A program made the position numbers and the translations under genes. Of a stretch of DNA of 49,725 nucleotides, positions 1-15,234 are shown piece after piece; within the stretch, counting starts at the first letter, position 1, and each line of letters starts with the position of its first letter. The notes under the pieces were generated by a model. The model ran no database searches. It saw only the letters and a program-made list of their open reading frames with translations, and was not told the DNA's origin. The DNA is from Gammaproteobacteria bacterium (GTDB lineage: Bacteria; Pseudomonadota; Gammaproteobacteria; Eutrophobiales; Eutrophobiaceae). Location: NCBI GenBank assembly GCA_028281365.1, contig JANQJZ010000022.1, forward strand, positions 1 to 49,725, written 5' to 3'.

Positions 1-1473
1 TTCAGGATACATGTAGACGTTAGCAAAGACGTAAACCGTGCCCTGTTGGGTATGCGTACGTTTTTGTGGTTCAAGTTCCATGCACCAGTTATTGGTTGGA
101 CAATAGAACATATTAGGTTCTTTTGGATCAACCGAACAAGGTTGTTGGTCCTTACCACCCATTGCTGAAGGACAAGTTTGAACATTCACACCAACTGCAA
201 AAGGTGAGTGTTTCTTGACCTTAACAGGACGACCGGTTTTCATGTCAACCTTTTCAGCCCAGTTAACGGTAACATACTTGTGTGCACGTAATAATGTTCC
301 ATCACGACGATCATGAACGTAGGCAAAACCGTTACGATCAAAGTGGGTCAGGGTTGGTACTTTCTTACCATCGATCGTCATTTCGGTAAGCATATTTTCA
401 TTCACACCGTCATAGTCCCATTGATCGTATGGCGTCATCTGATAGGCCCAAACCACTTCACCGGTATCAACCTTACGCGCAAAGGTCGTCATTGACCATT
501 TATTGTCATAGGTGCCATCGTTACAGTTTTCATGCGTATGCTTCTTGCCTTTATGACCACAACGATAAGAAGGACTCCAATGACCAGGGTTACCGGTAGA
601 CCAGTAGACCATTTTCAGTTTAGGGTCATAACTACCCCAGGCCCATGCCGCACCACCACCAATCTTGAACTCATCATTAGGGTAAGAAGAAAGACCTATA
701 TCCTTGCCGGCAGTACCGAATTGTGGATTGGCCTTGTTACTGTTCTTGGTTAGACACACATCTTTATCTGAACCGGTAGAGTGACATTTCCAGACTTCCT
801 TACCCGTCATGATGTCATAGGCAACCAGACGACCACGAGCGGCAAACTCATCACCACCAAAACCAGCAACAACATAATTTTCAGCAATTAAAGTCGGTCC
901 TGTGTGAGTCTCACCTTTTGGTGGATAAGCATGTTTCGTGACCCATTTTTCTTCACCGGTCTTCGCGTCAAGCGCAACGATAAACCCGTCAAGTGTATGA
1001 GTGATGATCATGCCTTTTGCATAGTTCAGTCCCCTATGAACCGTATCACAACAGGCACGAGGAACAGCGGTTTCATCACGATCCGTTTGTTTTTCCCAAC
1101 TCCAGACCTGTTCAGGGTTATCCGGATCACTGAGATCCAGTGCCTGAACAATATTTGGCCAAGCGCTGGAAAAATACATCATTGGTTTTCCACCGACTTC
1201 AACTACAATCGGTTGACCTTCATGACCACGCAAAGCACCCGTTGATTGACTCCACGCCAAATTCAACCGAGAAACATTCGCCTCATTGATTTGCTTTAAT
1301 TGACTATGACGAGTCAGTTTATTATCCCTTCCAGGTGCGGGCCATAAGTTAGGATTTTTTACCGCCTTATCAATCTCTTCAGATGCTGTGCCAGCTCCAG
1401 CATTCATGCCGGTTAATGCTAATGTTGCAATCATCGCAGCATAGGCTAACCGACGACTAATTAACTTTATCAT
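1..1473 (-). CDS. xoxF: XoxF-type PQQ-dependent methanol/alcohol dehydrogenase, 3' part cut by window edge
   Basis: The reading frame starts at an ATG preceded by a strong GAGGAGGT ribosome site and runs off the left edge, leaving 491 residues of an expected 600 or so. A Sec signal peptide occupies about residues 1-30. Visible landmarks of the quinoprotein beta-propeller are the vicinal disulfide Cys141-Cys142, the GGDEF-like segment with Glu209, TGNP with Asn295, and WDYDGVNEN with Asp353 and Asp355. Asp two residues after the catalytic Asp is the known marker of lanthanide-dependent enzymes of the XoxF class. The enzyme should oxidise methanol or other primary alcohols in the periplasm and pass electrons to a cytochrome c. 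Residues about 305-320 form a Cys/His-rich insertion that I do not know from typical XoxF proteins. Its cytochrome partner is not in the window. Confidence 0.9.
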   Translation of the reverse strand, partial: MIKLISRRLAYAAMIATLALTGMNAGAGTASEEIDKAVKNPNLWPAPGRDNKLTRHSQLKQINEANVSRLNLAWSQSTGALRGHEGQPIVVEVGGKPMMYFSSAWPNIVQALDLSDPDNPEQVWSWEKQTDRDETAVPRACCDTVHRGLNYAKGMIITHTLDGFIVALDAKTGEEKWVTKHAYPPKGETHTGPTLIAENYVVAGFGGDEFAARGRLVAYDIMTGKEVWKCHSTGSDKDVCLTKNSNKANPQFGTAGKDIGLSSYPNDEFKIGGGAAWAWGSYDPKLKMVYWSTGNPGHWSPSYRCGHKGKKHTHENCNDGTYDNKWSMTTFARKVDTGEVVWAYQMTPYDQWDYDGVNENMLTEMTIDGKKVPTLTHFDRNGFAYVHDRRDGTLLRAHKYVTVNWAEKVDMKTGRPVKVKKHSPFAVGVNVQTCPSAMGGKDQQPCSVDPKEPNMFYCPTNNWCMELEPQKRTHTQQGTVYVFANVYMYPE

Positions 1474-1561
1474 TTTCAGACCTCCTCAATTATTTTTATT
1501 TAGTTTAAGGACTACTCCCTATGCAAACAGATCAGATATAAACTCCTCATCATAAACAACT

Positions 1562-1592
1562 AAAAATGTCCGGCATCATTTGCCGGACATTT
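1562..1592 (-). terminator. intrinsic terminator-like hairpin, minus strand
   Basis: A perfect 12-bp inverted repeat (1564-1575 with 1581-1592) has a 5-base loop. Its core is TGTCCGGCA/TGCCGGACA. Read on the minus strand it is followed by TTTTTAG. It lies upstream of xoxF, so it would end a minus-strand transcript arriving from the right, or act as a leader hairpin of xoxF. No convincing gene lies to its right on that strand. Confidence 0.5.
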
Positions 1593-1812
1593 CTAAATCA
1601 AATAGAGGAGGTTAATGTTACTTATTTGCATCAGACAAGATTATCCCACTTTATATAACAGCAGATAATATGAAATTATCATTTTTCATATGGGATATAT
1701 TCACTAAAACCAACAATAATTAGCTCAATTAGTTAATATAAATTCCCAAAAACAATAGGACCTTTTCCTATATATTTTATGTTTTATCTAAAAATCAAAA
1801 CAAATTAATTAG

Positions 1813-1968
1813 TTACTTCAACACCTGCCAAACCTCTTCCATGATGATGGCGGAAATATCAACTGGATGTAATGCAGCATTTTCTCGACGTTGCTGACAC
1901 GATTTCATTAAGGAAAAATTCTCTTCGTTTAATCCGAAGCCGTCCCCGAATTCCTTTGCTCCAACCAT
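1813..1968 (-). CDS. possible 51-residue protein
   Basis: An ATG-to-TAA frame encodes a soluble 51-residue peptide that starts MVGAKEFGDG and ends EEVWQVLK. Its composition looks protein-like, with acidic and hydrophobic residues alternating. No clear ribosome site precedes the ATG, and a stop codon lies immediately upstream in frame. It sits between two hairpins whose better T-tracts lie on the minus strand, which hints at a minus-strand transcript. I recognise no family. It could be a gene remnant or chance. Confidence 0.22.
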   Translation of the reverse strand: MVGAKEFGDGFGLNEENFSLMKSCQQRRENAALHPVDISAIIMEEVWQVLK

Positions 1969-2018
1969 CTATATATGATCGACTCTTAAGTTTTTCCTTA
2001 TTTATTGAAGTTAATAAA

Positions 2019-2040
2019 GCCTTCCAAATTACTGGAAGGC
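2019..2040 (-). terminator. hairpin, weak terminator candidate
   Basis: GCCTTCCA and TGGAAGGC pair perfectly over 8 bp around a 6-base loop. On the minus strand the stem is followed by TTTATT, a poor T-tract, and on the plus strand by no T-tract. It may be a terminator, a leader structure or a protein-binding site. Confidence 0.3.
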
Positions 2041-2288
2041 ATCATAGAAAAGCCTAATAGAACTTTTGAGAGCAGAAATCCACAAAAGACTATTAACACA
2101 TTTTGTCATCTATAAAAAAATAAATAGATATTATTTTTCTTAATAATATTGAGAATTTTTACGCCGTTATATGGAAATTCATCCTTAATATGACTTATTC
2201 AGGACTGAAATAGGAAGTCTTTCTGAAATAAATCATTCTATATTAAAATTAGGCTAATAATTTTTATTTTAATAAAACGAATTACTAA

Positions 2289-3026
2289 ATGAACGTGCCT
2301 TATTATCTGATACCTCAGTTTAATACTGTCCTTAAATCAACAGGATATATATTTTCAATTTTTGTATTAGCATCATGTGAGTCAAGTATAGACCCCGATG
2401 ATTTTTTTCCTCTCCAAAATAATACGCAATGGATCTATTCCGGTTATCAAAATAACTGGCGCCTGACTGATAGTGACTTCATCCATATCGTACGAAATAT
2501 AGAACATCATGAAGACAAGAATGGCATTTTACTCAAACGCACACGACAAGATAAAAATGAATTAATCTATCGAATTGATGAATCCGGTGTCTATTTTTTA
2601 AAAAATACAGATGGTTCGATGGAAGATTCCGGTGAATTGATATTTCCACTACCGCCTAAAATGAGTGATAGGTGGACACGCAAGATAAAAACCCGGTTCA
2701 TACCTGAGTTTGCCTGTGGTTACTGTACTAGCACTGATACACTAAAACACCCGTTAGTCGTTGAATTTTCAGTTATTAAAATTAATGCCAATATAAAAAC
2801 TCCTGCAGGCAAATTTAAAAACTGTGTTGTAATTGAAGGAATTGGCAAGGCAGAAATTGACGCCGGAGATTCCATGGGCAATGTCAATGTTGAACTACAT
2901 ATACGCGAATGGTATGCACCGGGAGTTGGCCTGGTTAAACTGGAATGGCGAGAACAAACGGATCAGGATATTTTAATGACTGGCGACTATCGCCTGGAAC
3001 TGAAGGACATATATTATAATCAATAA
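2289..3026 (+). CDS. putative lipoprotein of unknown function
   Basis: The 245-residue product begins with a hydrophobic segment ending in the lipobox-like VLASC (Cys near residue 30), so it is probably lipidated and anchored in an envelope membrane. The mature part is hydrophilic with a beta-rich look. It includes a CGYC pair near residues 143-146 and a C-terminal stretch reading WYAPGVGLVKLEW. That stretch recalls a phrase I have seen in uncharacterised secreted or lipoprotein families where the sentence-like 'aPGvGlVk' recurs, though I cannot name the family. It is followed 22 bases later by a Sel1-repeat protein on the same strand, probably in one operon. It diverges from xoxF. Confidence 0.7.
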   Translation: MNVPYYLIPQFNTVLKSTGYIFSIFVLASCESSIDPDDFFPLQNNTQWIYSGYQNNWRLTDSDFIHIVRNIEHHEDKNGILLKRTRQDKNELIYRIDESGVYFLKNTDGSMEDSGELIFPLPPKMSDRWTRKIKTRFIPEFACGYCTSTDTLKHPLVVEFSVIKINANIKTPAGKFKNCVVIEGIGKAEIDAGDSMGNVNVELHIREWYAPGVGLVKLEWREQTDQDILMTGDYRLELKDIYYNQ

Positions 3027-3048
3027 GATTGATTAATATCTAAAACCG

Positions 3049-3534
3049 ATGATATTCAATAACAAGTTCCTGTTAATTATATTATTATTTTTTCTGCAAA
3101 CAGCTTGTTTTCAAGAAACGAATTACTCTAAAGCATTTCAGAATGGAGACTATGAACGATCATTCTACTTGCTAAAACAAGCAGAAAGAAATTCACCAGA
3201 TCCTTTTGTACACAATTTGCTTGGGGCCCATTATGAATTGGGGCTGGCAACACCGCGTAATTATTCTAAAGCCTACAAATATTATGAAAGAGCCGCCATT
3301 GCCGACCTGCCACAGGCGCAAGTCAACCTGGGCAGGATGATTGAGAATGGCAGGGGCACAGTGCTAGATCCAGCCTTGGCCTATGGCTGGTATTGGGCGG
3401 CATTCCATTCCGGACATGATTCAGCCCTTCCCTATGTTCAAAATTTATCTGGTCAATTGTATGCGCACTTGATCAATGAAGCCCGAAAGAAAGTTAGCAA
3501 AATCCTTAATAAAGATTTAACCGTTGTGAAATAA
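3049..3534 (+). CDS. secreted Sel1-like (TPR-type) repeat protein
   Basis: The product has 161 residues. The first 20 are a signal sequence ending in TAC, so lipidation is possible although the preceding Gln is atypical for a lipobox. At least two Sel1-like helical repeats follow, recognisable by NLLGAHYELGL...NYSKAYKYYERAA and VNLGRMIENGRG...DPALAYGWYWAA. Such repeats bind other proteins, often in the periplasm, and no enzymatic role is expected. It is probably co-transcribed with the lipoprotein upstream and ends 14 bases before the stop of the convergent minus-strand cluster. Its partner is unknown. Confidence 0.75.
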   Translation: MIFNNKFLLIILLFFLQTACFQETNYSKAFQNGDYERSFYLLKQAERNSPDPFVHNLLGAHYELGLATPRNYSKAYKYYERAAIADLPQAQVNLGRMIENGRGTVLDPALAYGWYWAAFHSGHDSALPYVQNLSGQLYAHLINEARKKVSKILNKDLTVVK

Positions 3535-3548
3535 GTCTATTTAAAAAA

Positions 3549-4067
3549 TCATTTATCAGGCAAGACCGTCTCAGGCAGATCAAAAAACTCCAGTGCATCT
3601 GATACATCGCCACCCTGATAAGCATCAGTCGGTTGGAGCATGTCAAAATCATTTCCATCGGAAACTTCGCCTATCTGGGGCACACCTTTTCTGGCTTTGT
3701 TTCCCGCCTCAATCACCATTTTATGTAATTTAGCACTATACGGTATTCGATAGGCTCTGGGTTCTACATTATCGGAGGTACTTTGCACATCAGTAACCCA
3801 TAAATATATTTCGCCACTGGTACCTTTTGCCTTATTGGGTTCCTTGACCATTTCGGATACCAGTTTAAACCTGTCCGGTATCGTTTCCGAGGTCGGCCAA
3901 CCGAGTAGTGGTGGAAACGAAAAGTAAGAAAGCAGATAAAAACAAAACATAATAATAACCATAACCAGCTTGATTACCCATGGCCAATGAGAGTAAATAG
4001 CCATTAGTACCAGTAGCGCAGCAGTTACAACATAACATGCAATAAGACCTGACTGGGCAAGTAACAT
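3549..4067 (-). CDS. inner-membrane protein of the ExbB/ExbD-like cluster, unknown function
   Basis: The 172-residue protein has two predicted membrane helices in the first 60 residues and a hydrophilic C-terminal domain of about 110 residues. That domain contains TSGEIYLWVTD and PRAYRIPYS and ends in an acidic tail. I do not recognise the family. It is the last gene of a tight minus-strand run that begins with the sensor kinase, 14 bases after the ExbD-like gene. Its position suggests it is a third membrane component of the proton-channel complex. That is inference from context only. Confidence 0.7.
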   Translation of the reverse strand: MLLAQSGLIACYVVTAALLVLMAIYSHWPWVIKLVMVIIMFCFYLLSYFSFPPLLGWPTSETIPDRFKLVSEMVKEPNKAKGTSGEIYLWVTDVQSTSDNVEPRAYRIPYSAKLHKMVIEAGNKARKGVPQIGEVSDGNDFDMLQPTDAYQGGDVSDALEFFDLPETVLPDK

Positions 4068-4081
4068 AATAATCCCCTTTT

Positions 4082-4687
4082 TTATAATCTAACTATACTT
4101 TTCTGAATATGGTTGATGCTGGCAATATCACCGGCTTTGTTTATTGAAAACCTCACCGCTGTTTTTTCAGCACCACGATTATCTAGCTTAACTTCTCCGT
4201 AATATACAATTTCCAGTGCAGGATTTACTTTCATGACTTTAACATTCACATTAACCGGTTGTCTGTTTACAGTCGCATAGTAATGAAGGTTGACTACATA
4301 CTCACCAGAGACCACACCCCGGATGGTAACCACTTCCTGATTCAATGGATTTTGGATTTCGATTCCATCAACTATAATAGTATCGTTAGCGGTACCACGA
4401 TCATCCCGATCAAGATGCACTAAACCCGCTTCCCGATCACGGAACCAGACTAAATTACCTTTAGGATCCTCTACCCATATGTCTATATCATTAGGATTAT
4501 TATCCTCCCAATTGATAGTAATAATATATTCTGCCTTTGGGTCAATAATCCCGGTTTTTGCTTCCGGGTTCATAAAGATAATGGCGATCAAAAATAGAAA
4601 AGTAAATCCTAACAGACCATTAAACAAAAGATCGGTAAAAGGATCCGATAATTTTTTTTCTCTATGCCAACGATTACTAAAAGCCAT
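4082..4687 (-). CDS. ExbD-like single-pass membrane protein with a large periplasmic domain
   Basis: The 201-residue protein has a short cytoplasmic tail and one membrane helix at about residues 22-42, introduced by DPFTDLLFN. An Asp at the cytoplasmic edge of the helix is what ExbD, TolR and MotB proteins use for proton flow. Here the acidic residue in PFTD is the candidate. The periplasmic part starts with DIDIWVEDPKGNLVWF and looks like a beta-sandwich resembling DUF2135/pre-peptidase-type domains, not the ExbD/TolR fold. It is 24 bases downstream of the TolQ/ExbB-like gene, its likely partner. The family assignment rests on topology, the Asp and context. Confidence 0.6.
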   Translation of the reverse strand: MAFSNRWHREKKLSDPFTDLLFNGLLGFTFLFLIAIIFMNPEAKTGIIDPKAEYIITINWEDNNPNDIDIWVEDPKGNLVWFRDREAGLVHLDRDDRGTANDTIIVDGIEIQNPLNQEVVTIRGVVSGEYVVNLHYYATVNRQPVNVNVKVMKVNPALEIVYYGEVKLDNRGAEKTAVRFSINKAGDIASINHIQKSIVRL

Positions 4688-4711
4688 GTTAATTATTATT
4701 AAACGTTATCA

Positions 4712-5452
4712 CTATTCCAGGCCCGTATCAGAAAATTCCAGGATCTGTTCGATCAATTTATCTGCTCCCTTATCCAATACCAGATATTGCAGACCAAGTA
4801 ATAAACTACAGGTTAATCCTGTCAAAGTAGTGAATAGAGCGGTACCCATACCTAAGCTCATTTGTTGTAATATATTTTGCATAGTATCAACATTGAGCGT
4901 TTCAGCATTGGCAACTGAACCAAGCATTAGAACAAAACCAACAATTGTCCCCATTAATCCAAGTTTCAAAAGCACATCTACAAGAAACCAGCCAATATCA
5001 TGCGACCCCTTGGTTCTGGCTATGAGAATATCAACTGTATTTGAACTATTAATAGTGTCATCAGTACGTTCAGATATATTTTTTAAGCTGGCCAGGTAAT
5101 TACCAAATAAACTATTAACAGGGACCTTCTCATCGCCGACTTTTACCTGTTCGTTTTCTATATTTAGCGAATTCGACTTGCTCTTACACTTATTAATCAC
5201 ATTAAAAGCAATGTTAATTTGTGATGACAAATATATCGTTCTGATAGCGCAGTGAACTAAACCTACAAAAAATAAAAAGCCTATTGCAAAACAAAGACGA
5301 CTTTTATCCACAAATATCAATGTAGAAATAAGACCTTCATGCCAACATATAATTAAACCAAACAATATCAGGCTGAAAACCAAACTCCCTATAAGAAACA
5401 ACCCATGTGTATAATCCCATAAAGAAGGTAAATCTTGTCTGTCCAATATCAT
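4712..5452 (-). CDS. MotA/TolQ/ExbB-family proton channel protein
   Basis: The 246-residue protein has two membrane helices in the first 75 residues, a cytoplasmic stretch, and two C-terminal helices. The signatures are LGLMGTIVGFVLMLGS and GMGTALFTTLTGLTCSLL, which match the conserved third and fourth helices of TolQ/ExbB/MotA proteins that form the proton path. Such proteins work with a single-pass partner, here the ExbD-like gene immediately downstream. No TonB, TolA or OmpA-type partner is visible nearby, so the output of the motor is unknown. It starts 3 bases after the preceding gene, showing a shared operon. Confidence 0.8.
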   Translation of the reverse strand: MILDRQDLPSLWDYTHGLFLIGSLVFSLILFGLIICWHEGLISTLIFVDKSRLCFAIGFLFFVGLVHCAIRTIYLSSQINIAFNVINKCKSKSNSLNIENEQVKVGDEKVPVNSLFGNYLASLKNISERTDDTINSSNTVDILIARTKGSHDIGWFLVDVLLKLGLMGTIVGFVLMLGSVANAETLNVDTMQNILQQMSLGMGTALFTTLTGLTCSLLLGLQYLVLDKGADKLIEQILEFSDTGLE

Positions 5453-5455
5453 TTG

Positions 5456-5896
5456 TTATTCCACTTCGATTTCGAATCGTGTACCTTTGTCAGAAAGATC
5501 CCTGTCAGTGATCATGTATTTACCCGGTTTTACTGCGAGAAAATACAGCACGGCGGTAACTGGGCCGTCGAAATCAATCGATCTCAGACTGTTTATACCT
5601 ATTTCCATTTGTGCTATGTCCAGCTTTCTAATGTATATGTGCGAGAAAAATTTTGCTCCCTGTAATATATATTCATGCTTACCGCTGGATGTAATCGGTA
5701 ACTTGTAACATTGCCCTGTTTCTATTTTGTATTTTGGAACTGAGACTGAAAAGCCGGCATCATCAAAACCCAGTTTTTGTTCCTCGAGTTTTTCACAGCG
5801 AGCAATCAAATTTCCCTTTGCAAAAACCGAATTAGAAAAAAAAAGGACAGAAAGAATAACTAAAATATATTTTTTGTTCCTAAACTGCATAAACAT
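5456..5896 (-). CDS. secreted protein of unknown function, first gene next to the proton-channel pair
   Basis: The 146-residue product has a clear signal peptide (positively charged start, hydrophobic core, cleavage near SVFA). AAGGGG lies 6 bases before the ATG. The mature domain of about 120 residues looks all-beta, with an end reading AVKPGKYMITDRDLS. This resembles the closing strands of cupredoxin-like folds, but I see no clear copper-ligand set (Cys/His/Met). It lies 3 bases upstream of the TolQ/ExbB-like gene and 31 bases downstream of the response regulator, so it is probably translated with the membrane proteins and acts in the periplasm. Function unknown. Confidence 0.7.
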   Translation of the reverse strand: MFMQFRNKKYILVILSVLFFSNSVFAKGNLIARCEKLEEQKLGFDDAGFSVSVPKYKIETGQCYKLPITSSGKHEYILQGAKFFSHIYIRKLDIAQMEIGINSLRSIDFDGPVTAVLYFLAVKPGKYMITDRDLSDKGTRFEIEVE

Positions 5897-5927
5897 TTTT
5901 TACCCCTTATTTATTTTCTCATAAAAG

Positions 5928-6605
5928 TTATACATCTTGGATGGCCTTAACAACTCCTTTTTTAATAGCAATCAACATAAGTTCACGTGTATTTTTTACA
6001 CGTAACTTTCTTAAAATGCGAGAACGATAATTAGCGATAGTCTTCGGAGAAAGGCACATCTCGTCAGCAATCTCTGTGGTTTTTCGACCCTCTGACACCA
6101 ACTTGAAAATAGAAAACTCTTTTGCTGTTAATGTATCAAGTTGTGTAAAAGGTTCCGGCGACTCCCAATCATCTTTATTATCTATTCCCATTAACGCAAT
6201 TCTCTGCGCATATTTTTCTCCAAGGTAATAGTTTCCACTATATACCTTGTTTATCGCTTCTACCATTATTGAAAGAGAGTTTGCTTTCGTAATAAAACCC
6301 TTTGCACCACAACGAATGACCTGTGCGGCAATTTGTGTCTCATCGAACATTGTGCATACAATTATCCTGGCCATTGGGTCAAACTTGATTATTGTTTCTA
6401 TACAACTAAAACCACTTTTACCTGGCATTGAGATATCTACCAGGCAAACATCCGGTCTTAATTTTTTATATAGCATATAGCCATCGTTAGCATTATTTGC
6501 ACAGCCTAAAACATTAAAACCTTCTGCTTCCAGAAGATTTTTATATCCATCAGAAACTATTTCGTGATCATCAATTATCAGTAAATTTATTTTTCCATTA
6601 TCCAT
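5928..6605 (-). CDS. NarL/LuxR-type response regulator (ExaE/PedR-like by context)
   Basis: The 225-residue protein has a receiver domain (about 1-120) with the acidic pair at IDDHE, the phosphorylation Asp57 in CLVDISMPG and Lys107 in GFITKA. A LuxR-type helix-turn-helix (about 155-220) reads EGRKTTEIADEMCLSPKTIANY. It should bind DNA as a dimer when phosphorylated. It starts 2 bases after the kinase stop, so the two are coupled. In Pseudomonas, regulators of this class (ExaE, PedR1) control exaA-type alcohol dehydrogenases. The same role here is inferred from the two PQQ dehydrogenase genes on either side. Confidence 0.9.
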   Translation of the reverse strand: MDNGKINLLIIDDHEIVSDGYKNLLEAEGFNVLGCANNANDGYMLYKKLRPDVCLVDISMPGKSGFSCIETIIKFDPMARIIVCTMFDETQIAAQVIRCGAKGFITKANSLSIMVEAINKVYSGNYYLGEKYAQRIALMGIDNKDDWESPEPFTQLDTLTAKEFSIFKLVSEGRKTTEIADEMCLSPKTIANYRSRILRKLRVKNTRELMLIAIKKGVVKAIQDV

Positions 6606-6607
6606 AA

Positions 6608-7642
6608 TTATTGATATACAATATCTCTCGGTATTAATATTGAAAGTTCTGTCCCTTCCTGCTGTGCAGTGACGATCTCGAATGAACCTTCCAGATTATT
6701 GACCCGCTCGCGGATTCCGATCAGACCCAGTCCTTCAGTTTCAGGTGGATAGACAAAACCACAACCATTGTCACTCAATAGCATGAATATCCAGTTATTA
6801 CTCTCATCATCACCAATACTCTGGTAATCAACAAACAGACTGACTTCCGTTGCACCGGAATGCTTCAAAATATTAGTCAATCCTTCCTGTACAGAACGGT
6901 ATATTACCAGCGCAACAGAAATATTAATTCGCCTGTCATCACCGTTGCTTGAAAATTCGATCTGGTAGGCAGGATTGTTTTCCTGCCACTCGGCGACTAA
7001 ATTACTCAGCGCTGCATCCAGGCCTATCTTTTCCAGTATCGTCGGGCGCAACTCATTTAACATTAGCCGGGTTAGCCGGCTTAATTGTTCAGAATTTGAA
7101 ATAACCTTATCTACGATCTTTATTAATGCTGGATCATTTTGCAAACCGGTCTTGATTGTTGACGCATTGGCATGAATTGCTGTTAAATATTGTCCGAATA
7201 TATCATGTAAATCAGAAGCAATTCGTTTTCTTTCAGCTTCCTGGATCTCAGAGATACGATTTAACAACCTGCGGTTTTCATTTAATGTATCTGCTTGTTG
7301 CCTCTGGCTTGACTCCAGGGAAGCCTGTACTTTCAGACTTTTATTTAATGCATATCTCGCATCTTTCCAGCGCCGGTGACTAAACCACACCAAGCCTGGA
7401 AAAAAAACCAGGGTTGTAATAATTAATTCATCGATTTCAAACCAGTCATATTGACGGGTCCAATGGAATAAAAATTCATAGAAATCAAAGTAAGCAGAAA
7501 AAAATAATGTGATCAGACTGATTAATATGATTAAAATCATATCCTGTCTGGCTTTAAATTTTTTTTCACTTTTATCGATAAAGATATCAAGTGAATTTCT
7601 TTTCGATGAATTATCCTGTAGACGACGATAGCTAAGAGACAT
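6608..7642 (-). CDS. membrane sensor histidine kinase, HisKA_3 (NarX/DegS) type
   Basis: The 344-residue protein has two membrane helices (about 35-52 and 72-88) with a very short loop outside. A coiled-coil follows, then the dimerisation domain with His146 in ASDLHDIFGQ, and an ATPase domain with SDNGCGF and GLGLIGIRER. The small external part suggests it senses a membrane signal or a partner protein instead of binding a ligand in a periplasmic domain. It is the first gene of the minus-strand run that continues with its response regulator and the proton-channel genes. Pseudomonas ExaD/PedS kinases share this output type. The signal here is unknown. Confidence 0.88.
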   Translation of the reverse strand: MSLSYRRLQDNSSKRNSLDIFIDKSEKKFKARQDMILIILISLITLFFSAYFDFYEFLFHWTRQYDWFEIDELIITTLVFFPGLVWFSHRRWKDARYALNKSLKVQASLESSQRQQADTLNENRRLLNRISEIQEAERKRIASDLHDIFGQYLTAIHANASTIKTGLQNDPALIKIVDKVISNSEQLSRLTRLMLNELRPTILEKIGLDAALSNLVAEWQENNPAYQIEFSSNGDDRRINISVALVIYRSVQEGLTNILKHSGATEVSLFVDYQSIGDDESNNWIFMLLSDNGCGFVYPPETEGLGLIGIRERVNNLEGSFEIVTAQQEGTELSILIPRDIVYQ

Positions 7643-8079
7643 AGTTAGTAACTGGATATATTCAAAATTTCGTCGCCGAAATATAAATCAATTATTGACT
7701 AATTTATATTAGTGGCAGGAAAGAAATGAAATACTCCTGAATAATTTGGGCACTTATCCTCACATTAGTAAACCAAGTCACCATACTTTGGAACTGTTCA
7801 AGGTTTATTGCCTGAGATAAATTATGATCGGTGGTTTATAGAAGACACAATAATTCTGATCCTGAGCCATTTATTTTCGCAGGCAGGAAAGCTTACAACG
7901 TTAAAATCTCTGCTTCGCATAAACTCGCAGGGATATTTTCATCACTTACTAACTGACTTTTTCCTATTGACTGTTCTACTCATTTCTCGATAGTGTATTT
8001 CTAATAATTAAATTTATTATACATTTTGGATCAACTTTTTTTTTGAATTGATTGAATGGACAATAGAAGAACTATACCA
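7643..8079. other. intergenic region between divergent kinase and MxaD-like genes
   Basis: This A+T-rich stretch of over 400 bases separates the divergent kinase operon and the SRPBCC gene. A 61-codon plus-strand frame at 7808-7993 has no ribosome site or recognisable domain. I see no strong inverted repeat. It presumably holds the promoters of both directions. Confidence 0.5.
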
Positions 8080-8559
8080 ATGCTAAAATATGCTCCAGTA
8101 ATTTTATTTCTTTACCTCCTGAACCAGGCTGCTTACGCAGGTCAAACCTTGCAGGTCACCAAGACAATGAAGCTTGAAACAAGTTCGGAAATAGTTTGGG
8201 ATTACGTTGGTGATTTTTGTGCTATTAAAGAATGGCACCCTGCTGTTGCAAAATGTGATATTACAGAAGAGGATAATGGTAAGTTTCGTACCCTCACCTT
8301 ACAGGATGGAGCAATTATAAAAGAAAAGCATGGCGGTAATAACCCGACTGGTTATATGTATTCGATCACTGAAAGTCCATTACCAGTCAAAAACTATAAT
8401 GCCTTGTTTGAAGTTGACTCGAATGGAGACCATTCAGTTATCACATGGACAGCTACTTTCCTGGCTAAAGACAAACCGGATAACGAGGCTAAGGAAGTAA
8501 TCAGTGGAATTTTTGACGCTGGTCTCGCTTCTATTAAAGAAAATTTAAAGCAAAAATAG
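8080..8559 (+). CDS. MxaD-like periplasmic SRPBCC-family protein
   Basis: Starting at the ATG at 8080 gives a standard signal peptide ending AAYA; an in-frame ATG at 8056 would add eight residues. The mature 140 or so residues form an SRPBCC (START-like) domain, with VTKTMKLETSSEIVWDYVGDF at its start and the phrase IKEWHPAV. These features match MxaD-type proteins that occur with methanol dehydrogenases. MxaD of Methylobacterium is reported to help transfer electrons from the dehydrogenase to its cytochrome. It probably serves the XoxF- or ExaA-type enzymes here. It stands alone on the plus strand, convergent with the next gene. Confidence 0.82.
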   Translation: MLKYAPVILFLYLLNQAAYAGQTLQVTKTMKLETSSEIVWDYVGDFCAIKEWHPAVAKCDITEEDNGKFRTLTLQDGAIIKEKHGGNNPTGYMYSITESPLPVKNYNALFEVDSNGDHSVITWTATFLAKDKPDNEAKEVISGIFDAGLASIKENLKQK

Positions 8560-8648
8560 ATCAAATATCGATTATCCAGTTTAGTTCCGAATAATCGGCA
8601 TTTATTTTAAATTAATTATTCAGTTTTATTACCTCTACTTAAAAACCA

Positions 8649-9098
8649 TTACCAGCAACTATCATAGCTCTCACTGATACCGCGAACATCCAACAATAAA
8701 TGATACCAGTCTTCTCCACAGGTAATATATCCTGCGTTTAATTGCGTAACGCCTTCCAAAGTATGCGTCATAGCTGACTTATCATTACAAAGATCCTTGG
8801 TGCCTGATAACAAAGATTTCAGTACTACTTTCCCATCAGAATTGATTTCTGTTTCAAAACGGGCAGAAAAATCAAACCCCCTCCCACCAACAAAGCTGCG
8901 AGGACCCTTGGTCGTAAATGGAAGTAACAAGGTGATAACTTCAACAGGCAAACCATTCCATTTGACCGTTGCCCCAATATTTAAACATTGCTCTGACCAG
9001 GCCAGGGATGGTGTTGATATAGCTAGGACCAACGTTATCAGGGACATAATCCTGTTTGAGTTTATTTTCCCAATAATTTTTGATGCTCTTTCAGTCAC
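8649..9098 (-). CDS. small secreted Cys-containing protein, unknown function
   Basis: The 149-residue product begins at a GTG; an ATG at 9047 is an alternative start with AGGA close before it. A hydrophobic signal segment ends near SLAWSEQ. The mature part has five Cys residues, including a C-terminal one in YDSCW, so disulfides are likely in the periplasm. I do not recognise a family. It is the most distal gene of the minus-strand series behind the ExaA-type dehydrogenase, but 142 bases separate it from its upstream neighbour, so a separate transcript is possible. Confidence 0.6.
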   Translation of the reverse strand: MTERASKIIGKINSNRIMSLITLVLAISTPSLAWSEQCLNIGATVKWNGLPVEVITLLLPFTTKGPRSFVGGRGFDFSARFETEINSDGKVVLKSLLSGTKDLCNDKSAMTHTLEGVTQLNAGYITCGEDWYHLLLDVRGISESYDSCW

Positions 9099-9239
9099 TG
9101 GAAACGTACTAAAGAATTTTGAAAGAGAGTTATTCTCTTATATCTGGAGCCAAATCAAAATAGTAATTTAAAATATACTGTCTGAAGGCATAATTTACGC
9201 ATTGTTGAGAGGAATAATAAGCTCTGATTATATCGGTAC

Positions 9240-9830
9240 CTACTCTATGCTAAGTCTTGGAAACACATGAGAACCTGGCTTTGTCTTATGCAGCATGTTT
9301 GCTGATACCGGCCTTAAGTCGCCATCCTTGGGCGGTGCTACTAATACATTTAGGTCGACTTCCCTTAACTGCCCTTTAATTGTTTCATTCTCGATCGTTA
9401 ACTGATAGTACAGGCCATTCCAGGGGTTAATTCCATATTCTTCTGGTGTTTTATGTAAAAACATCAAGTCATATTCAAGATCGACAAGATTATCTTTTGT
9501 TATATAACCTTGTTTCTGATACAGGTACTCAAAATGACAGATCATTTTTCCTTCCCGGTGAATACACTTGAAGGGTCGCATCGACAAAAATTCCTGTTGA
9601 AAAACACTTTCTTCAAAATTGATTTCGTATGTAATCTTCTCACCTTCATGTGAGAAGATTATCTCTGCTATTTTAGTTTTTATATTCTTGTTATCTATAA
9701 GTATTATTGATTTATTTCCCTCAGGTATTTCACTGGCAAACAGGTCAAATGAAATACTAAAGATGAAAGGAATTAATAATAAAAATGAAAAAATATAATC
9801 CCGGTTTTTGCTAATTTTAATTAGGGTCAT
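9240..9830 (-). CDS. secreted protein of unknown function in the alcohol dehydrogenase cluster
   Basis: The 196-residue product has an N-terminal hydrophobic signal segment ending near LFASE. It contains two Cys residues (KCIHREGKMICHFEY) that could form a disulfide. The later part includes PEEYGINPWNGLYY and a C-terminal PGSHVFPRLSIE. No family was recognised. No ribosome site is obvious before the ATG. It lies 44 bases after a pair of duplicated small proteins and is likely part of the same transcript, hence a periplasmic accessory protein by location. Confidence 0.6.
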   Translation of the reverse strand: MTLIKISKNRDYIFSFLLLIPFIFSISFDLFASEIPEGNKSIILIDNKNIKTKIAEIIFSHEGEKITYEINFEESVFQQEFLSMRPFKCIHREGKMICHFEYLYQKQGYITKDNLVDLEYDLMFLHKTPEEYGINPWNGLYYQLTIENETIKGQLREVDLNVLVAPPKDGDLRPVSANMLHKTKPGSHVFPRLSIE

Positions 9831-9874
9831 AGTTGCAATTTTTATTATGTATTAAGGCTTAAGTTATACATTCT

Positions 9875-10192
9875 TCAATTTTTTTCCTGTTGTAATAATT
9901 TCAAATCAAACGATTGACTTTCAGTTTTAACATTACAGGACGTTTCATCATCTTCATCACTACAATGTACAAGTACCCCATCCGGATAAAAAGACAGGTT
10001 CTCACAATTAATCAAAAAGTTGACGCTTCCGTCAGAAACAGGCTGTCTTGAAAGCGAATCGAGTTTGCAATCAGTTTTATATAGAATCAGGCGGCGTATC
10101 TGATAGTCATTTATTTGAGCTTCTGAGGAGGAGGCCAGAATAAATATACATACCATCAAGATACTGCCGCCCTTAAACTTGACTGAACTCAT
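9875..10192 (-). CDS. small secreted protein, copy 2 of a tandem pair
   Basis: The 105-residue product has a signal peptide ending SSEAQ and a mature domain of about 80 residues. It shares with the next gene upstream the phrases INDYQIRRLILY, FYPDGV and DETSCNVKTES. Four Cys residues of the mature part are at matching places in both proteins, indicating two conserved disulfides. I do not know the family. The pair arose by tandem duplication and has diverged to roughly half identity by eye. It lies 41 bases downstream of its paralogue. Confidence 0.65.
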   Translation of the reverse strand: MSSVKFKGGSILMVCIFILASSSEAQINDYQIRRLILYKTDCKLDSLSRQPVSDGSVNFLINCENLSFYPDGVLVHCSDEDDETSCNVKTESQSFDLKLLQQEKN

Positions 10193-10233
10193 TTGTCTAT
10201 TCTTTTACACTTAGAGTATTTTTTTAATAAAAA

Positions 10234-10557
10234 TTATCGCGTTCTATCTCTATGTAAAATATCGAGCAAATTGAACTTACGACTTTCCGTTTTAATTACA
10301 CAACTGGTTTCATCTGTATCGCTACTACAATGTATGTCCACGCCATCTGGATAAAAAGAAACATTTTTACAAGTAACATAAAAATTTTCTTCATCTTTAA
10401 CAATGTCTTTTCGCATTATCGTAGCTAACTCACAATCTGATTCATACAGTACCAATCGTCGAATAAAATAGTCGTTAATCTCCGCATGCAATGTTGTATT
10501 TAAACTACTTAGAAGCAGGCAATATAATATTCCCTTGCGAAAGAAGTCATTTATCAC
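10234..10557 (-). CDS. small secreted protein, copy 1 of a tandem pair
   Basis: This 107-residue protein begins at a GTG that overlaps the TGA of the cytochrome gene by 4 bases (GTGA), so it is translationally coupled to it. A signal segment ends at TTLHAE. The mature part carries INDYFIRRLVLY, FYPDGV and DETSCVIKTES, shared with the downstream paralogue, along with four matching Cys residues. Coupling to the PedF-type cytochrome suggests a function in the periplasmic electron-transfer step, for example assembly or docking. That is inference only. Confidence 0.65.
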   Translation of the reverse strand: MINDFFRKGILYCLLLSSLNTTLHAEINDYFIRRLVLYESDCELATIMRKDIVKDEENFYVTCKNVSFYPDGVDIHCSSDTDETSCVIKTESRKFNLLDILHRDRTR

Positions 10558-10979
10558 AATCCATCTTTTGGTAGAGAATTGATATACGTTCTAATCGCCC
10601 ACATGGCTTCCTGGCTTATCAGGCCTTCAAACCTGGGCATATAGGTAACACCGTTACGAATCGATCCTCCCCGTGCGCGATAGATAAACCACTCATCATC
10701 TTCTGCAGTGTCTTTAAGTGCACGTAAATCAGGTGCAATTCCACCGGATCTCGCATCCAGACCATGACAACGGGCACAATTTGAGCCGTAACCGGAAGCA
10801 CCGATCTGAATCGCCAACTCATTTCCTTTGTATGGATTCTTGGTGAGCCATTCCTCACCAAGCGCTTCAAGACCTTCTGTATCAACCGGCTGTGGTGCCC
10901 CATCTCCATGAGCAAACACATTATTTAGTAAACATAAATTTAAAATGCTGATGATTAATAAATTACAACTTTTTTTCAC
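10554..10979 (-). CDS. pedF: cytochrome c550 partner of PQQ alcohol dehydrogenase (PedF type)
   Basis: The 141-residue protein has a signal peptide ending VFAHG and one c-type heme site, CARCH (Cys68, Cys71, His72). Met114 in YMPRFEG is the likely axial ligand. Other landmarks are GGIAPDLR and ISQEAMWAIRTY, which I know from PedF/ExaB-group cytochromes that take electrons from ExaA/PedE-type dehydrogenases. It is encoded downstream of the ExaA-type gene on the same strand, with two genes between. It should act in the periplasm between the quinoprotein and a terminal oxidase. Confidence 0.88.
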   Translation of the reverse strand: MKKSCNLLIISILNLCLLNNVFAHGDGAPQPVDTEGLEALGEEWLTKNPYKGNELAIQIGASGYGSNCARCHGLDARSGGIAPDLRALKDTAEDDEWFIYRARGGSIRNGVTYMPRFEGLISQEAMWAIRTYINSLPKDGL

Positions 10980-11011
10980 TTTTTAATTACCTCTTGTCTG
11001 TTCTTTGTAAA

Positions 11012-11440
11012 TTAATTAATTTCCATTGGCTCTAACCAGATATCCCAACCGGCACTACCATCTATTTTTAAAGAATATTGTCCAGGTGTATCGATCAAAT
11101 ACTCGTCTTCTCCTCGACCACCAACATGTAAATTTTGTAAAACGTTTCCTTTTCCATCTCTTAAATACAGCACAAAAATCACACCTTGACTGCGATAGCG
11201 CAGAAGGTGCGGTACGTCTAATGTAAAAACTTCAGTAACATGCCCCAGTTTTCCAGATAATGTTGGCGGTGCGAATCGTCTGGCTTTGTCATCAAAACAA
11301 TCAAGCCTTTGTTCCGGGTTTTCTATTTTTCTACAAAGCCGCAATGCAGAAATAACATCTTCAGCAGCCCATGATTGAAATACAGGGACAAAAGTGAAAC
11401 AAAATAGAATCAAGGCAACGTTAGTTACCTTACCAGTCAT
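11012..11440 (-). CDS. small secreted protein with RLDCFD motif, unknown function
   Basis: The best start is the ATG at 11440, which overlaps the pentapeptide gene's stop by 11 bases and follows GAAGG. A longer frame reaching 11581 lies inside that gene and is unlikely. The 142-residue product has a signal peptide ending SWAAE and then CRKIENPEQRLDCFD, a short Cys-containing motif seen at the start of several secreted gammaproteobacterial proteins. The C-terminal half (DEYLIDTPGQYSLKIDGSAGW) looks like a beta-sandwich. Translational coupling puts it in the dehydrogenase operon. Function unknown. Confidence 0.62.
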   Translation of the reverse strand: MTGKVTNVALILFCFTFVPVFQSWAAEDVISALRLCRKIENPEQRLDCFDDKARRFAPPTLSGKLGHVTEVFTLDVPHLLRYRSQGVIFVLYLRDGKGNVLQNLHVGGRGEDEYLIDTPGQYSLKIDGSAGWDIWLEPMEIN

Positions 11441-12041
11441 GCGGACAACCTTCGCAGCCCTCCATAAAAGCACCCTGAAAGATCGTGTACGTAATTTTTG
11501 CCCCATCCATAACTGCATTTGACATATTCGCTTCGTATAATTTGGCTTCCTGTAAATCCGTATAGATAATCTTTGCACCAACCAATTGAATACGTTTGGC
11601 TCGCACCTTCTCTAAACTAGCAGCGGTTAAGTCTGCATAGTTCATATCTGCCTTCATCGCCCTGGCAAACATCATGTTCGCACCTCTTAAATTTGCACGA
11701 ACAAACTTTGCATTTTTCAACATAGTAACACGCATATCAGCTGACTCCAGATTAGCGCCAGATAAGTCCGCGCCGATTAATTTAACACCACGTAAATCAG
11801 CCCTGGCCAGGTTGGCACCTCTCAAATCCGCACCGCTTAAGTCAGCATTTTTAAGATCCGCAAAACGAAGATCAGCATTTTGGCAAACCGTTTTCGGTTT
11901 TATTTCACATCCATTGATAACCCATGGATCAGGTCTCGGTACTTTATTAACGATCTTATCGTAAGCGTAAACAGAGATACTTTGTGTAGATAGTGAAAAC
12001 AGTATTGTTAAACCTAACAGGTTTCCAATCATTCCGTTCAT
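11430..12041 (-). CDS. secreted pentapeptide-repeat protein
   Basis: The ATG at 12041 has GAGG 8 bases upstream; an ATG two codons earlier is too close to it. A signal peptide ends near SVYAY. From about residue 60 to the end, the A(D/N)LxX repeat runs almost without break (for example ADLSGADLRGANL, DLRGVKLIGADL), predicting a right-handed quadrilateral beta-helix of some 25 pentads. The tail has CEGCPHDW. Such proteins are scaffolds, not enzymes. It lies 157 bases downstream of the ExaA-type gene, past a terminator-like hairpin, and I recall similar genes beside exaA elsewhere. A role with the dehydrogenase is inferred. Confidence 0.85.
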   Translation of the reverse strand: MNGMIGNLLGLTILFSLSTQSISVYAYDKIVNKVPRPDPWVINGCEIKPKTVCQNADLRFADLKNADLSGADLRGANLARADLRGVKLIGADLSGANLESADMRVTMLKNAKFVRANLRGANMMFARAMKADMNYADLTAASLEKVRAKRIQLVGAKIIYTDLQEAKLYEANMSNAVMDGAKITYTIFQGAFMEGCEGCPHDW

Positions 12042-12103
12042 TTTCATTACCTCTTAACGTCTTAAAATTATTTTTCAAGATTAATTGTTAAGATTAAAAG
12101 AGA

Positions 12104-12197: not shown

Positions 12198-14132
12198 TTA
12201 TTTTGCTGCGACTTCCTTACCACTCTCAACAGCTGCAACTTCTTTAGGGATTTCAAATACCCAGAAGGATCCACCTTGTGAAACTGGCTTGGTCAGGTCA
12301 GCGACATCACCACCCCAAAGTGGAACAGCACCACCATAACCTGAACCTATGCCGATATATTGTTTACCGTCCATTTCCCAGGTTACGGGTACAGAAACGA
12401 CACCTGAACCGGTCTGGAAAGACCAGAGTTCTTTACCGTTCTTGGCATTAAAAGCCTTGACGTAACCATCGCTGGTCCCGGTAAACACAAGATTACCTTT
12501 AGTGGTTAAGGTGCCAGCCCAAAGAGGTAGCTTTTCTCTATGTTCCCAGATTGTTTTTCCTGTAAGAGGATCCATTGCTTTTAATGAACCAATGTGATCA
12601 TCGAATTGCTTGTGGATTCTGAAACCCTGACCCAGATAGGCAGCACCTTTTTTATAGGTCACGTTTTCTGTCCAATAATCTTCAGACCAGTGGTTTGAAG
12701 GGATATAGAACAATCCGGTATCCGGATGGTAAGACATTGGATTCCAGTTTTTACCGCCCAGGAAGTTAGGGGTAACCTGGATTTTCTTGCCTTGCTTTTC
12801 ACCTGGAGCAGGTTCCGGCGGGTATTGATCAAAATCAACGATCGGACGACCTGTTTTTAGATCCCAGCCTTTTGCCCAGGTAATGCTCGGAACGAATGGC
12901 CAGACTTTAAGCAGGGAAGTCGGTTTATTTGCTTCCTTGACACCCCGTTTGGCCAACTTTTCACGATCAGTTATAAACAGAAAACCATTTCGGTCAGCAT
13001 GTGCACCGGCCTTAACCATTTTGCCTGATTTAGGATCCTTGTATTCGAACAGAATAATTTCATTATTACCCGAATAGTCCCAGGCATCGTTTGGTGTGTG
13101 CTGGAAAAAACCTACCAATTCACCTGTGCTTGGTTCGATATAAGCCTGCCCTGAAGTGTAAAGACTATCCCAATTACGCGGGTCTTTGTCCGGGCCGGTT
13201 CGCTTCCAGGTATTCCAAGGTGCAGGGTTACCCGTACCAATGACTATGGTATTGGTTTCTTCGTCAAATGTAGCCGTCTGCCAAGGGGCACCGCCGCCGT
13301 GGCTCCAGGCTTCAACTTTTCCTGTTCCTTTATAATCACCATCAGGCCATGAAGGTGCTTTAGGATTACCGGTCGTTGTTGAATCCGCGCCATTTAATTT
13401 ACCCATATGTCCTTCAACAAATGGACGCATCCAGAGTTCCTTACCAGTATCCACATCCCGAGCAAATAATTTACCAACAACACCAAATTCATCACCTGAT
13501 GAACCATGGATTAACATAACCTTGCCAGTTTTTTTGTCTTTGACGATAAAAGGTGCGCCGGTCATGGTGTATCCCGCAGTGTGATCACCAAATTTTTCTT
13601 TCCAGACAACTTCACCGGTTTTCTTGTTCAGCGCCACAACAGAGGCATCAAGTAAACCCATGAATACCTTGTCACCATAAATAGCAGCACCACGATTAAC
13701 TACATCACAACAGGGACGAATGTCTTCCGGTAAACGTGCGGTATATTGCCAGAGTTTCTTGCCCGTTTTGGCATCCAGTGCAAACATGCGAGAGTAGGAA
13801 GCGGTCATGTAGATGACACCATCATGAATCAATGCTTGTCCTTCCTGGCCACGTTGCTTCTCATCACCAAAAGAGAACGACCATTTAGGTCGTAACTTGC
13901 CAACGTTTTTGCTGTTGATTTGATTCAATGAACTATGACGCTGTGCCTTCAACCCAAGACCATACATCAAAACATCATCTGTTGTTTTATGATCATTTTG
14001 AAGATCTTTCCAGCTTACACCAGTACCAGCCATTACTGGAGAAGAAGTTATTGAAATAATGGAAACGGTTACTGCTGTTACTGCACCCAATGATGCCTTG
14101 CGCAAACCATTGGGTAATGATTTATTCAACAT
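12198..14132 (-). CDS. exaA: PQQ-dependent alcohol dehydrogenase, ExaA/PedE type
   Basis: The ATG at 14132 follows AAGGAGG by 9 bases; a TTG further upstream is not needed. The 644-residue protein has a signal peptide ending SPVMAG. Landmarks are Cys141-Cys142 (vicinal disulfide), SSGDEFG with Glu215, TGNPAPWN with Asn302, and the catalytic Asp352 in NDAWDYSGNNE. Ser354, where lanthanide enzymes have Asp, together with HADRNGF, matches Pseudomonas ExaA and PedE, which use calcium. It oxidises ethanol or related alcohols in the periplasm. The cytochrome c550 gene downstream is its likely acceptor. Full length for the family, no defects. Confidence 0.9.
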   Translation of the reverse strand: MLNKSLPNGLRKASLGAVTAVTVSIISITSSPVMAGTGVSWKDLQNDHKTTDDVLMYGLGLKAQRHSSLNQINSKNVGKLRPKWSFSFGDEKQRGQEGQALIHDGVIYMTASYSRMFALDAKTGKKLWQYTARLPEDIRPCCDVVNRGAAIYGDKVFMGLLDASVVALNKKTGEVVWKEKFGDHTAGYTMTGAPFIVKDKKTGKVMLIHGSSGDEFGVVGKLFARDVDTGKELWMRPFVEGHMGKLNGADSTTTGNPKAPSWPDGDYKGTGKVEAWSHGGGAPWQTATFDEETNTIVIGTGNPAPWNTWKRTGPDKDPRNWDSLYTSGQAYIEPSTGELVGFFQHTPNDAWDYSGNNEIILFEYKDPKSGKMVKAGAHADRNGFLFITDREKLAKRGVKEANKPTSLLKVWPFVPSITWAKGWDLKTGRPIVDFDQYPPEPAPGEKQGKKIQVTPNFLGGKNWNPMSYHPDTGLFYIPSNHWSEDYWTENVTYKKGAAYLGQGFRIHKQFDDHIGSLKAMDPLTGKTIWEHREKLPLWAGTLTTKGNLVFTGTSDGYVKAFNAKNGKELWSFQTGSGVVSVPVTWEMDGKQYIGIGSGYGGAVPLWGGDVADLTKPVSQGGSFWVFEIPKEVAAVESGKEVAAK

Positions 14133-14463
14133 GGCGTTAAACCTCCTTAAACTTATCAATAATATTTATAGTTTTTTGCAAGAAGCGTTTATACGCCTTA
14201 AAATTTTTATAATCTATGCATGTTAATTAAATCAGGAACTATTAATTATCTATTTAGGAAAATTTCTGAAGATATAATTCCAAATTTGCAATTTTTGTTG
14301 CAATCTGCAACAGAAAAAAATACGCAAATTCATTACTAAACATAACTATAATTTTAACTGGTACAATTTCCTGTTATTAAAATTAAATCTTTCTAATGTT
14401 TTGAATGTTTTCTTATTATTCAATTGTTAATATACTTTTTTATTAACAATAAAAATTTCTGTA
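14133..14463. promoter_or_regulatory. divergent promoter region of exaA and the SoxYZ-like gene, with inverted repeats
   Basis: This 331-base A+T-rich spacer carries two notable symmetric sites. One is GTTGCA-ATC-TGCAAC at 14297-14311, preceded by another TTGCAA at 14286, a plausible operator for the LuxR-type regulator. The other is a perfect 10-bp inverted repeat ATTGTTAATA / TATTAACAAT (14423-14450) with 8 bases between, ending 13 bases before the SoxYZ-like start. No promoter boxes are clear enough to name. Regulator identity is inference. Confidence 0.5.
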
Positions 14464-15234
14464 ATGCTTATGATCATTATTAAGTTACTTGTGTTAATCG
14501 GCTGGGTTCTCATAGGCACCCAGGCACACGCAACAAACAACAACCTTGATCCTCTGGATTCACCAGGCTGGAATGTTATGCATGAATTCATACTGGGTGG
14601 TGAGCCTGTAGTTTTTGATGATCGTGTCATTATAAATATTCCCGAGTTTGCGGAAGATCCATTAAATGTCCCTGTATCCATCAGAATAGAAGGGATAAAA
14701 GATATTCAGGACATTGTTATATTTGCCGATATGAACCCTATTCAAAAAGTACTTAATTTCAAGCCTGTTAAAATAGAACCTTATATTGCCTTCCGTATTA
14801 AAGTTGAACAGTCAACACCTATCAGGGCAGCAGTAAAAACGTCTGATGGCGTATGGCATGTCGGTGGTAAATGGCTGGAAGCTGCTGGTGGTGGATGTTC
14901 TGCCCCGAGTCATGGCATGGTACATGGTGACTGGCAACAAACCCTTATGAATGTCTCATCACGTTATTGGAGTAAAGGTGATATCAACCGGTTACGATTC
15001 AGAATCATGCACCCTATGGATACCGGACTCGCACCAGGCATCCCGGAATTTTATGTGAAAAATTTCTCTATCCTGAATGAAGCTGGGCAGACACTCGCTT
15101 TACTCAACACTTATCAGCCCATTAGTGAAAACCCGGTCTTCACGTTTGAATTAAAAAAGAATTCATCAGTGGAACAACTGCATCTCGTTGGCATGGACAA
15201 TAATGGAAATCGCTTGACCGCAACTATACAATAA
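14464..15234 (+). CDS. quinoprotein dehydrogenase-associated SoxYZ-like carrier protein
   Basis: The 256-residue protein has a signal peptide ending QAHAT. A SoxY-like domain (about 30-150) ends in the Cys-bearing AAGGGCSAPS (Cys145), and a SoxZ-like beta domain (about 155-256) includes RFRIMHPMDTGL and FTFELKKN. In sulfur oxidation SoxY carries intermediates on the Cys of a GGCGG arm. This fused form belongs to a group named for its association with quinoprotein dehydrogenases, not with sox genes. No other sox gene is in view. It diverges from exaA, so co-regulation is likely. What its Cys carries is unknown. Confidence 0.88.
   Translation: MLMIIIKLLVLIGWVLIGTQAHATNNNLDPLDSPGWNVMHEFILGGEPVVFDDRVIINIPEFAEDPLNVPVSIRIEGIKDIQDIVIFADMNPIQKVLNFKPVKIEPYIAFRIKVEQSTPIRAAVKTSDGVWHVGGKWLEAAGGGCSAPSHGMVHGDWQQTLMNVSSRYWSKGDINRLRFRIMHPMDTGLAPGIPEFYVKNFSILNEAGQTLALLNTYQPISENPVFTFELKKNSSVEQLHLVGMDNNGNRLTATIQ

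Follow-up and report, generated by a model that had tools for sequence, protein, structure and literature searches.

We identified a conserved three-gene module of Pseudomonadota that probably encodes a general proton-driven envelope motor of the 5:2 type, recruited to PQQ gene clusters and taken up by phages. It was found in the window, by which we mean the whole stretch of 49,725 nucleotides that was analysed. The module consists of the genes for a channel protein (P3), an axle-like protein (P2) and a third membrane protein (P1), and in the window it is accompanied by a gene for a small secreted protein (P4). The four genes occupy positions 3549-5896 of the minus strand, and the gaps between P1 and P2, P2 and P3, and P3 and P4 were 14, 24 and 3 bases, respectively. 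An earlier note on this DNA had described four genes with gaps of 3-24 bases that follow a kinase-regulator pair and encode a TolQ/ExbB-like protein, an ExbD-like protein, a two-helix membrane protein and a secreted protein; this layout was recovered in full. The features of the window that are needed below are as follows.

1-1473, minus strand: second PQQ dehydrogenase, truncated by the window start, with WDYD, the motif with the extra Asp of lanthanide-type enzymes
2289-3026, plus strand: DUF3108-like lipoprotein (PF21347, 28.9 bits vs cut-off 27)
3049-3534, plus strand: Sel1-repeat lipoprotein adjoining the module, lipobox LQTAC (PF08238, 9.2e-13), also present in the sister locus
3549-4067, minus strand: P1, 172 aa, two TM helices
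4082-4687, minus strand: P2, 201 aa, one TM helix and a beta-sandwich
4712-5452, minus strand: P3, 246 aa, MotA/TolQ/ExbB-type channel protein, about four TM helices
5456-5896, minus strand: P4, 146 aa, small secreted protein with a signal peptide (hydrophobic N-terminus)
5928-6605, minus strand: LuxR-type response regulator (Response_reg and GerE) of the operon's two-component pair
6608-7642, minus strand: HisKA_3 sensor kinase of the same pair (PF07730, 6.4e-13)
10554-10979, minus strand: cytochrome c550 PedF of the PQQ cluster (TIGR04494, 183.5 bits vs cut-off 122)
12198-14159, minus strand: PQQ-dependent alcohol dehydrogenase with WDYS (TIGR03075, 714.5 bits vs cut-off 480)
14464-15234, plus strand: quinoprotein-dehydrogenase-associated SoxYZ-like carrier (TIGR04557, 207.8 bits vs cut-off 140)

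No match above cut-off was found for P2, P1 or P4 in Pfam or NCBIfam. Besides the window, a P4 homologue was present only in the closest sister locus (L008/L077). Being confined to the window and one sister genome, P4 lies outside the conserved core and is a lineage-specific addition to the operon. The exact kinase-regulator pair was likewise shared with the nearest sister locus only. The window also encodes a secreted Polyketide_cyc2 (SRPBCC) protein (8056-8559), and in 10 loci with a transpeptidase-linked module, SRPBCC genes of similar look were seen at a distance of about 6 kb from it. Between PedF and the module there is a tandem pair of paralogous genes for small secreted proteins of 105 and 107 aa (9875-10192 and 10234-10557), and a secreted pentapeptide-repeat protein (11430-12047) lies within the PQQ cluster.

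HMM scans of the bacterial loci detected P2 in 99, P3 in 99 and P1 in 97, in the order P3-P2-P1. Each P2 in the first 30 loci examined had P3 before it and P1 behind it, and the same order was seen in 20 context regions, where one P1 was too divergent for the HMM. The recurrence of this order in practically every bacterial P2 locus indicates that the cluster is not a chance arrangement. Among 96 relatives, P2 was present in 44; the same family accounts for 40 of these, a count that takes in the genome of the window. Carriers of the module included uncultured Gammaproteobacteria, an Olavius symbiont, Methylohalomonas lacus, a Burkholderiales MAG and marine Alphaproteobacteria. When 398 Pseudomonadota genomes were sampled, about 16 carried the module, including nine of one alphaproteobacterial genus with genomes of 6-9 Mb, which is perhaps Bradyrhizobium. 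None of the searched libraries had a name for the P3-P2-P1 module, and no description of it was found in the open-licence literature.

P3 is a member of the MotA/TolQ/ExbB channel family. It matched PF01618 (MotA_ExbB) at 4.5e-7 with 30.1 bits against the Pfam curated cut-off of 22.9, it was also recovered in a search of its own genome, and its profile matched MotA, TolQ and ZorA chains in the PDB. Helix 2 is followed by a long loop in the cytoplasm, and helices 3 and 4 contain the motifs LGLMGT and FTT, respectively. Residues G165, G168, T209 and G212, the conserved Gly and Thr of the two core helices, were invariant in bacterial and phage homologues. P1 is a two-TM hairpin with a basic loop, to which a small domain rich in beta strands is joined (AlphaFold pLDDT 85); its PR motif is almost invariant. 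As the loop is basic, the positive-inside rule suggests that the C-terminal domain is probably periplasmic. OB-like structural matches of P1 reached only Z up to 6 and were not trusted, and no known fold could be clearly assigned to P1.

P2 begins with a single TM helix that opens with PFTD (D19), at the place where the TolR/ExbD proteins of the same genome have PYID or PLID. D19 was kept in 99 of the 102 aligned homologues and in all 37 viral ones. Bradyrhizobium-like copies and three exceptions have none at position 19 and carry the Asp one helical turn earlier (FDPLG or FDPIT), suggesting that proton use may differ there. In the AlphaFold model built with 102 sequences (mean pLDDT 89.5), helix 16-39 is followed by a predicted sandwich of 11-12 strands, and no match of P2 to the ExbD family was obtained at E up to 1. 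D19 and this model bear out the proposal of the earlier note that an ExbD-like protein here carries a beta-sandwich head in place of the ExbD fold.

The head itself is predicted to be a TerD-like beta-sandwich. When Foldseek candidates were re-aligned with a second aligner, the best PDB matches were four TerD-family structures with Z of 11.5, 10.0, 9.9 and 9.6 (next 6.1), and since plain Foldseek of the P2 model gave no PDB match at E up to 0.001, this fold match comes from one aligner. The alignments covered 129-133 residues at 14-16 percent identity, the best (Z 11.5) extending over 133 residues. 9a6r was presumably of the TerD family, judging from its GLPD title. A Foldseek search of the head against a viral library placed a 'tellurium resistant like protein' within the top ten. 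Pfam TerD (PF02342) had no match in P2 and none in its own genome, and a profile-profile comparison of P2 with TerD (hhalign) gave a probability under 1 percent, the same as the shuffled-column control. Sequence homology of the head to TerD was therefore rejected, and our claim is one of a TerD-like fold and not of TerD membership. Klebsiella TerD binds Ca2+ according to a passage in PMC8123226 that cites Pan 2011. D67, D69, D95 and D96 are invariant in P2 and, compared by eye, would fit a Ca2+ site resembling that of TerD; the acidic loops also look similar by eye (LHLDRDDRGTANDT vs EHMGDNRSGVGEGDDE). Unlike P2, TerD proteins have no such membrane helix. P2-like sandwich domains were also seen inside large proteins (frames of 577-1150 aa) of three other genomes (L062, L063 and L064).

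The module was compared with the known systems of this class. As in ExbBD-TonB and TolQR-TolA, a protein of the channel family is encoded next to a single-helix partner with a membrane Asp in P-x-x-D, and force would be transferred across the periplasm. It differs from both in that P3 has about four TM helices and theirs three, in the beta-sandwich head in place of the ExbD/TolR fold, in a third gene for a two-TM protein instead of TonB or TolA, and in that no TonB-dependent receptor, TolB or Pal is encoded in the cluster. No TonB-like ORF was found in window positions 1-12000, and tolA, tolB and pal were absent from the cluster. The TonB gene of this genome lies elsewhere with its own ExbB/ExbD, and a separate tolQR is located at L001. 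A TonB or Tol system was thus rejected, since partners are missing and the genome has its own sets. P3 resembles MotA in having four helices, and GldM is a precedent for an axle protein whose large periplasmic domains differ from the ExbD fold (PMC9389320). Unlike MotAB and GldLM, the module has no peptidoglycan-binding OmpA domain and no flagellar or type IX secretion genes. Neither Pfam nor the AlphaFold model revealed an OmpA-like peptidoglycan-binding domain in P2, and a flagellar stator was rejected for this reason. With Zorya ZorAB the module shares a MotA-like subunit and a possible anti-phage role; P3 lacks the long ZorA tail. The ZorA score of P3 was 15.5 bits against a cut-off of 500, no ZorB, ZorC, ZorD or ZorE was found in the cluster, and PADLOC gave no match to P2 or P1. 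Zorya was rejected because the scores are far under the cut-offs and partners are lacking. The absence of TonB, Tol, flagellar and Zorya partners, already remarked in the earlier note, was thus confirmed. Elsewhere in the same genome (L006, C61, 1231-3185), a MotA-like protein of 348 aa is encoded ahead of a protein with a single helix and a long coiled coil, and the two resemble ZorAB- or MotAB-like pairs.

The genes next to the bacterial modules fell into more than one setting. In 48 of 99 bacterial loci, an L,D-transpeptidase, a DUF302 lipoprotein or a vWA-FHA protein was encoded around the trio on the same strand, a count that, like the other neighbour counts, depends on a home-made gene finder and on BLAST markers from few loci. 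These operons, about half of the bacterial loci, contain no PQQ gene. Clustering placed the L,D-transpeptidase upstream of the module and in the same orientation in 43 of 97 loci (YkuD 2.7e-21), and the DUF302 lipoprotein lies upstream of the trio in the transpeptidase operons. A DUF3108-like lipoprotein gene was found in 19 of 99 loci. In 17 of them it follows P1 immediately and in the same orientation; the other two, the window and its sister locus, have it convergent with the module. The 17 loci with a homologue directly 3' of P1 make this lipoprotein a likely outer-membrane partner. A lipoprotein gene beside the trio in two operon types suggests work towards the outer membrane, as in Tol-Pal, and it is from gene order that we infer a contact of the motor with a lipoprotein. 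No such lipoprotein gene adjoins the Bradyrhizobium-like loci. In one family member (L084, 5291-8970) a Ser/Thr kinase gene and an XdhC-like gene precede the module; this arrangement and the FHA domain that the vWA partner contains hint at phosphothreonine signalling.

The transpeptidase operons could mean that the trio is a cell-wall motor, serving peptidoglycan or outer-membrane attachment alongside the L,D-transpeptidase, with the PQQ neighbours incidental. The upstream same-strand transpeptidase argues for this, as do mreB-, mreC- and pbp2-like genes near the module in marine alphaproteobacterial loci and an amidase gene near the Azospirillum copy. We consider it unlikely, however, since it leaves the repeated, independent PQQ linkage described below unexplained, and since the Bradyrhizobium-like and phage modules have no wall genes.

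PQQ genes lie close to the module in the window and in L077, L065-L067, L072, L076 and L157, and perhaps in L148; in L067, pqqB, pqqC and pqqE (TIGR02109) are directly upstream. In three further family members (L247-L249), genes for a PQQ dehydrogenase, a cytochrome c and XoxJ lie at a distance of about 7 kb from the trio and its lipoprotein gene. In several lineages the module is thus located within clusters of PQQ dehydrogenase, pqqBC(D)E, SoxYZ-like, XoxJ and relay-hydrolase genes. On the P2 tree the PQQ label corresponded to five changes, four of them forced by supported branches, indicating that the PQQ linkage arose at least four times. In the 398-genome sample, 14 of the 15 genomes with a non-prophage P2 had a PQQ alcohol dehydrogenase, compared with 81 of the 383 that lack such a P2 (Fisher p about 1e-8, a value that is too small because related genomes were treated as independent, the data covering 6 genera only and most of the 14 coming from one genus). 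The co-occurrence with PQQ dehydrogenases called for by the proposal in the earlier note was therefore found. Since 81 of the 95 genomes with a PQQ dehydrogenase lacked the module, it is not essential for PQQ enzymes generally. Among the relatives, two genomes (G094 and G016) had P2 but lacked a good PQQ dehydrogenase. P2 was missing from 13 family members, of which almost all had PQQ-dehydrogenase-like genes. In L065 (1-3100) and L247 (13346-16987), loci of two different families, the PQQ-linked module adjoins a gene set for an aldehyde ferredoxin oxidoreductase (AOR, Fe-S protein and FAD protein).

These data bear on the proposal that the motor powers a step of alcohol oxidation. The link to PQQ dehydrogenases is real, and the repeated recruitment of the module by PQQ clusters suggests that it is useful for periplasmic alcohol oxidation. 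As a general function, however, the proposal is too narrow: about half of the loci in a transpeptidase operon, modules without a PQQ dehydrogenase and the phage copies together indicate that the general job is not alcohol oxidation. The PQQ linkage is a minority of loci, yet real for the window copy.

A stricter version would make the trio a dedicated energiser of PQQ enzymes, driving the uptake or insertion of calcium or lanthanide (or of PQQ), with the acidic head handling the metal. Its repeated placement in PQQ clusters, the best fold match to TerD with the Ca2+ binding of the Klebsiella protein, and the four invariant Asp residues of P2 would all agree with this. Against it are the operons without a PQQ gene in about half of the loci, the presence of the module in phages, the lack of a sequence-profile connection between P2 and TerD, and the type of dehydrogenase. 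The linked enzymes mostly carry the lanthanide-type Asp, as do 25 of 40 unlinked ones, so that no choice between calcium and lanthanide can be made. Without clear enrichment over this base rate, and with Ser at the lanthanide Asp position of the window's main enzyme (12198-14159), lanthanide specificity was rejected. We give a dedicated role in PQQ enzymology rather little credence and regard the PQQ clusters as one employer of a general envelope motor.

The module was also found in phages. A search of GenBank phage proteins with P2 gave 27 records, all from Rhizobium or Sinorhizobium phages, and two scans of viral contigs gave 77 further contigs. Among the viral loci, HMMs detected P2 in 86, P3 in 80 and P1 in 72, and the gene order was the same as in bacteria. 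The trio was plain in Pootjesviridae such as RHph_I1_9 and RL38J1, in RHph_N3_13 and in RHph_I1_18, and it also occurred in smaller phages, including temperate 16-3, RHph_TM3_3_14B and NV1.1.1. Both lytic and temperate phages bear it. Contamination is no explanation, as the trio lies among replication genes in complete annotated phage genomes. Phage P3 has only 138-158 residues but retains a resemblance to MotA_ExbB, with one match of 9e-5 that narrowly misses the cut-off and one of 7e-6 that passes it. Many phages have the trio flanked by lysis genes on one side and a metallophosphoesterase on the other, and a trypsin-like peptidase was encoded just upstream in 40 loci (PF13365 3.6e-20). Homing endonucleases (HNH or GIY-YIG/Seg-like) were seen between module genes (L042 7535-8077, L043 6225-6983 and L044 6252-6989), at different places in different phages. 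No description of complete motor modules in phage genomes was found in the open-licence literature. Its presence in phages shows that the module also serves outside any metabolic context.

That the phage trio might act in superinfection exclusion is an idea drawn from analogy with Zorya and with the Ter genes of jumbo phages, which were proposed to exclude rivals (PMC7824862). The module as a whole could then be a device of phage-host conflict that senses envelope disturbance and blocks superinfecting phages, with domesticated or defensive copies in bacteria; its place beside lysis genes and the protease in lytic and temperate phages and the weak matches of P3 and the phage homologues to ZorA models would fit, but we hold it to be quite improbable, as neither ZorB/C/D/E nor another defence gene could be recognised nearby and as its near-universal presence in one sampled bacterial genus and its stable operons with cell-wall and PQQ genes are unlike a patchy defence island.

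For the general envelope motor we propose the following working model. A ring of P3 channel subunits would enclose the membrane helices of two P2 chains, and P1 would be the constant third subunit. Protons would cross the P3/P2 interface at Asp19 of P2, causing the P2 dimer to turn or tilt, and the TerD-like heads would carry this motion into the periplasm. The motion would most likely reach an outer-membrane lipoprotein, the DUF3108-like protein here and a DUF302-type protein in other operons. In PQQ clusters it would probably serve a periplasmic step such as metal or cofactor loading or passage through the outer membrane. A broader reading, which we offer tentatively, is that of a three-subunit class of proton motors with a TerD-like, metal-binding periplasmic head, which may perform envelope and PQQ work in bacteria and may reshape the infected envelope for tailed phages, for example by excluding rivals or timing lysis.

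To our knowledge, only a small number of ion-driven 5:2 motors exist, and all those known drive processes of major importance. The 5:2 class would be widened by another motor family that differs in its head, has a third subunit and works with partners of its own, and the module is a gene set that could be deleted in culturable relatives. The phage trios pose the question of what a phage gains from a proton-driven motor in the envelope. That the module has entered PQQ clusters repeatedly provides a handle on metal and cofactor supply to periplasmic quinoprotein enzymes.
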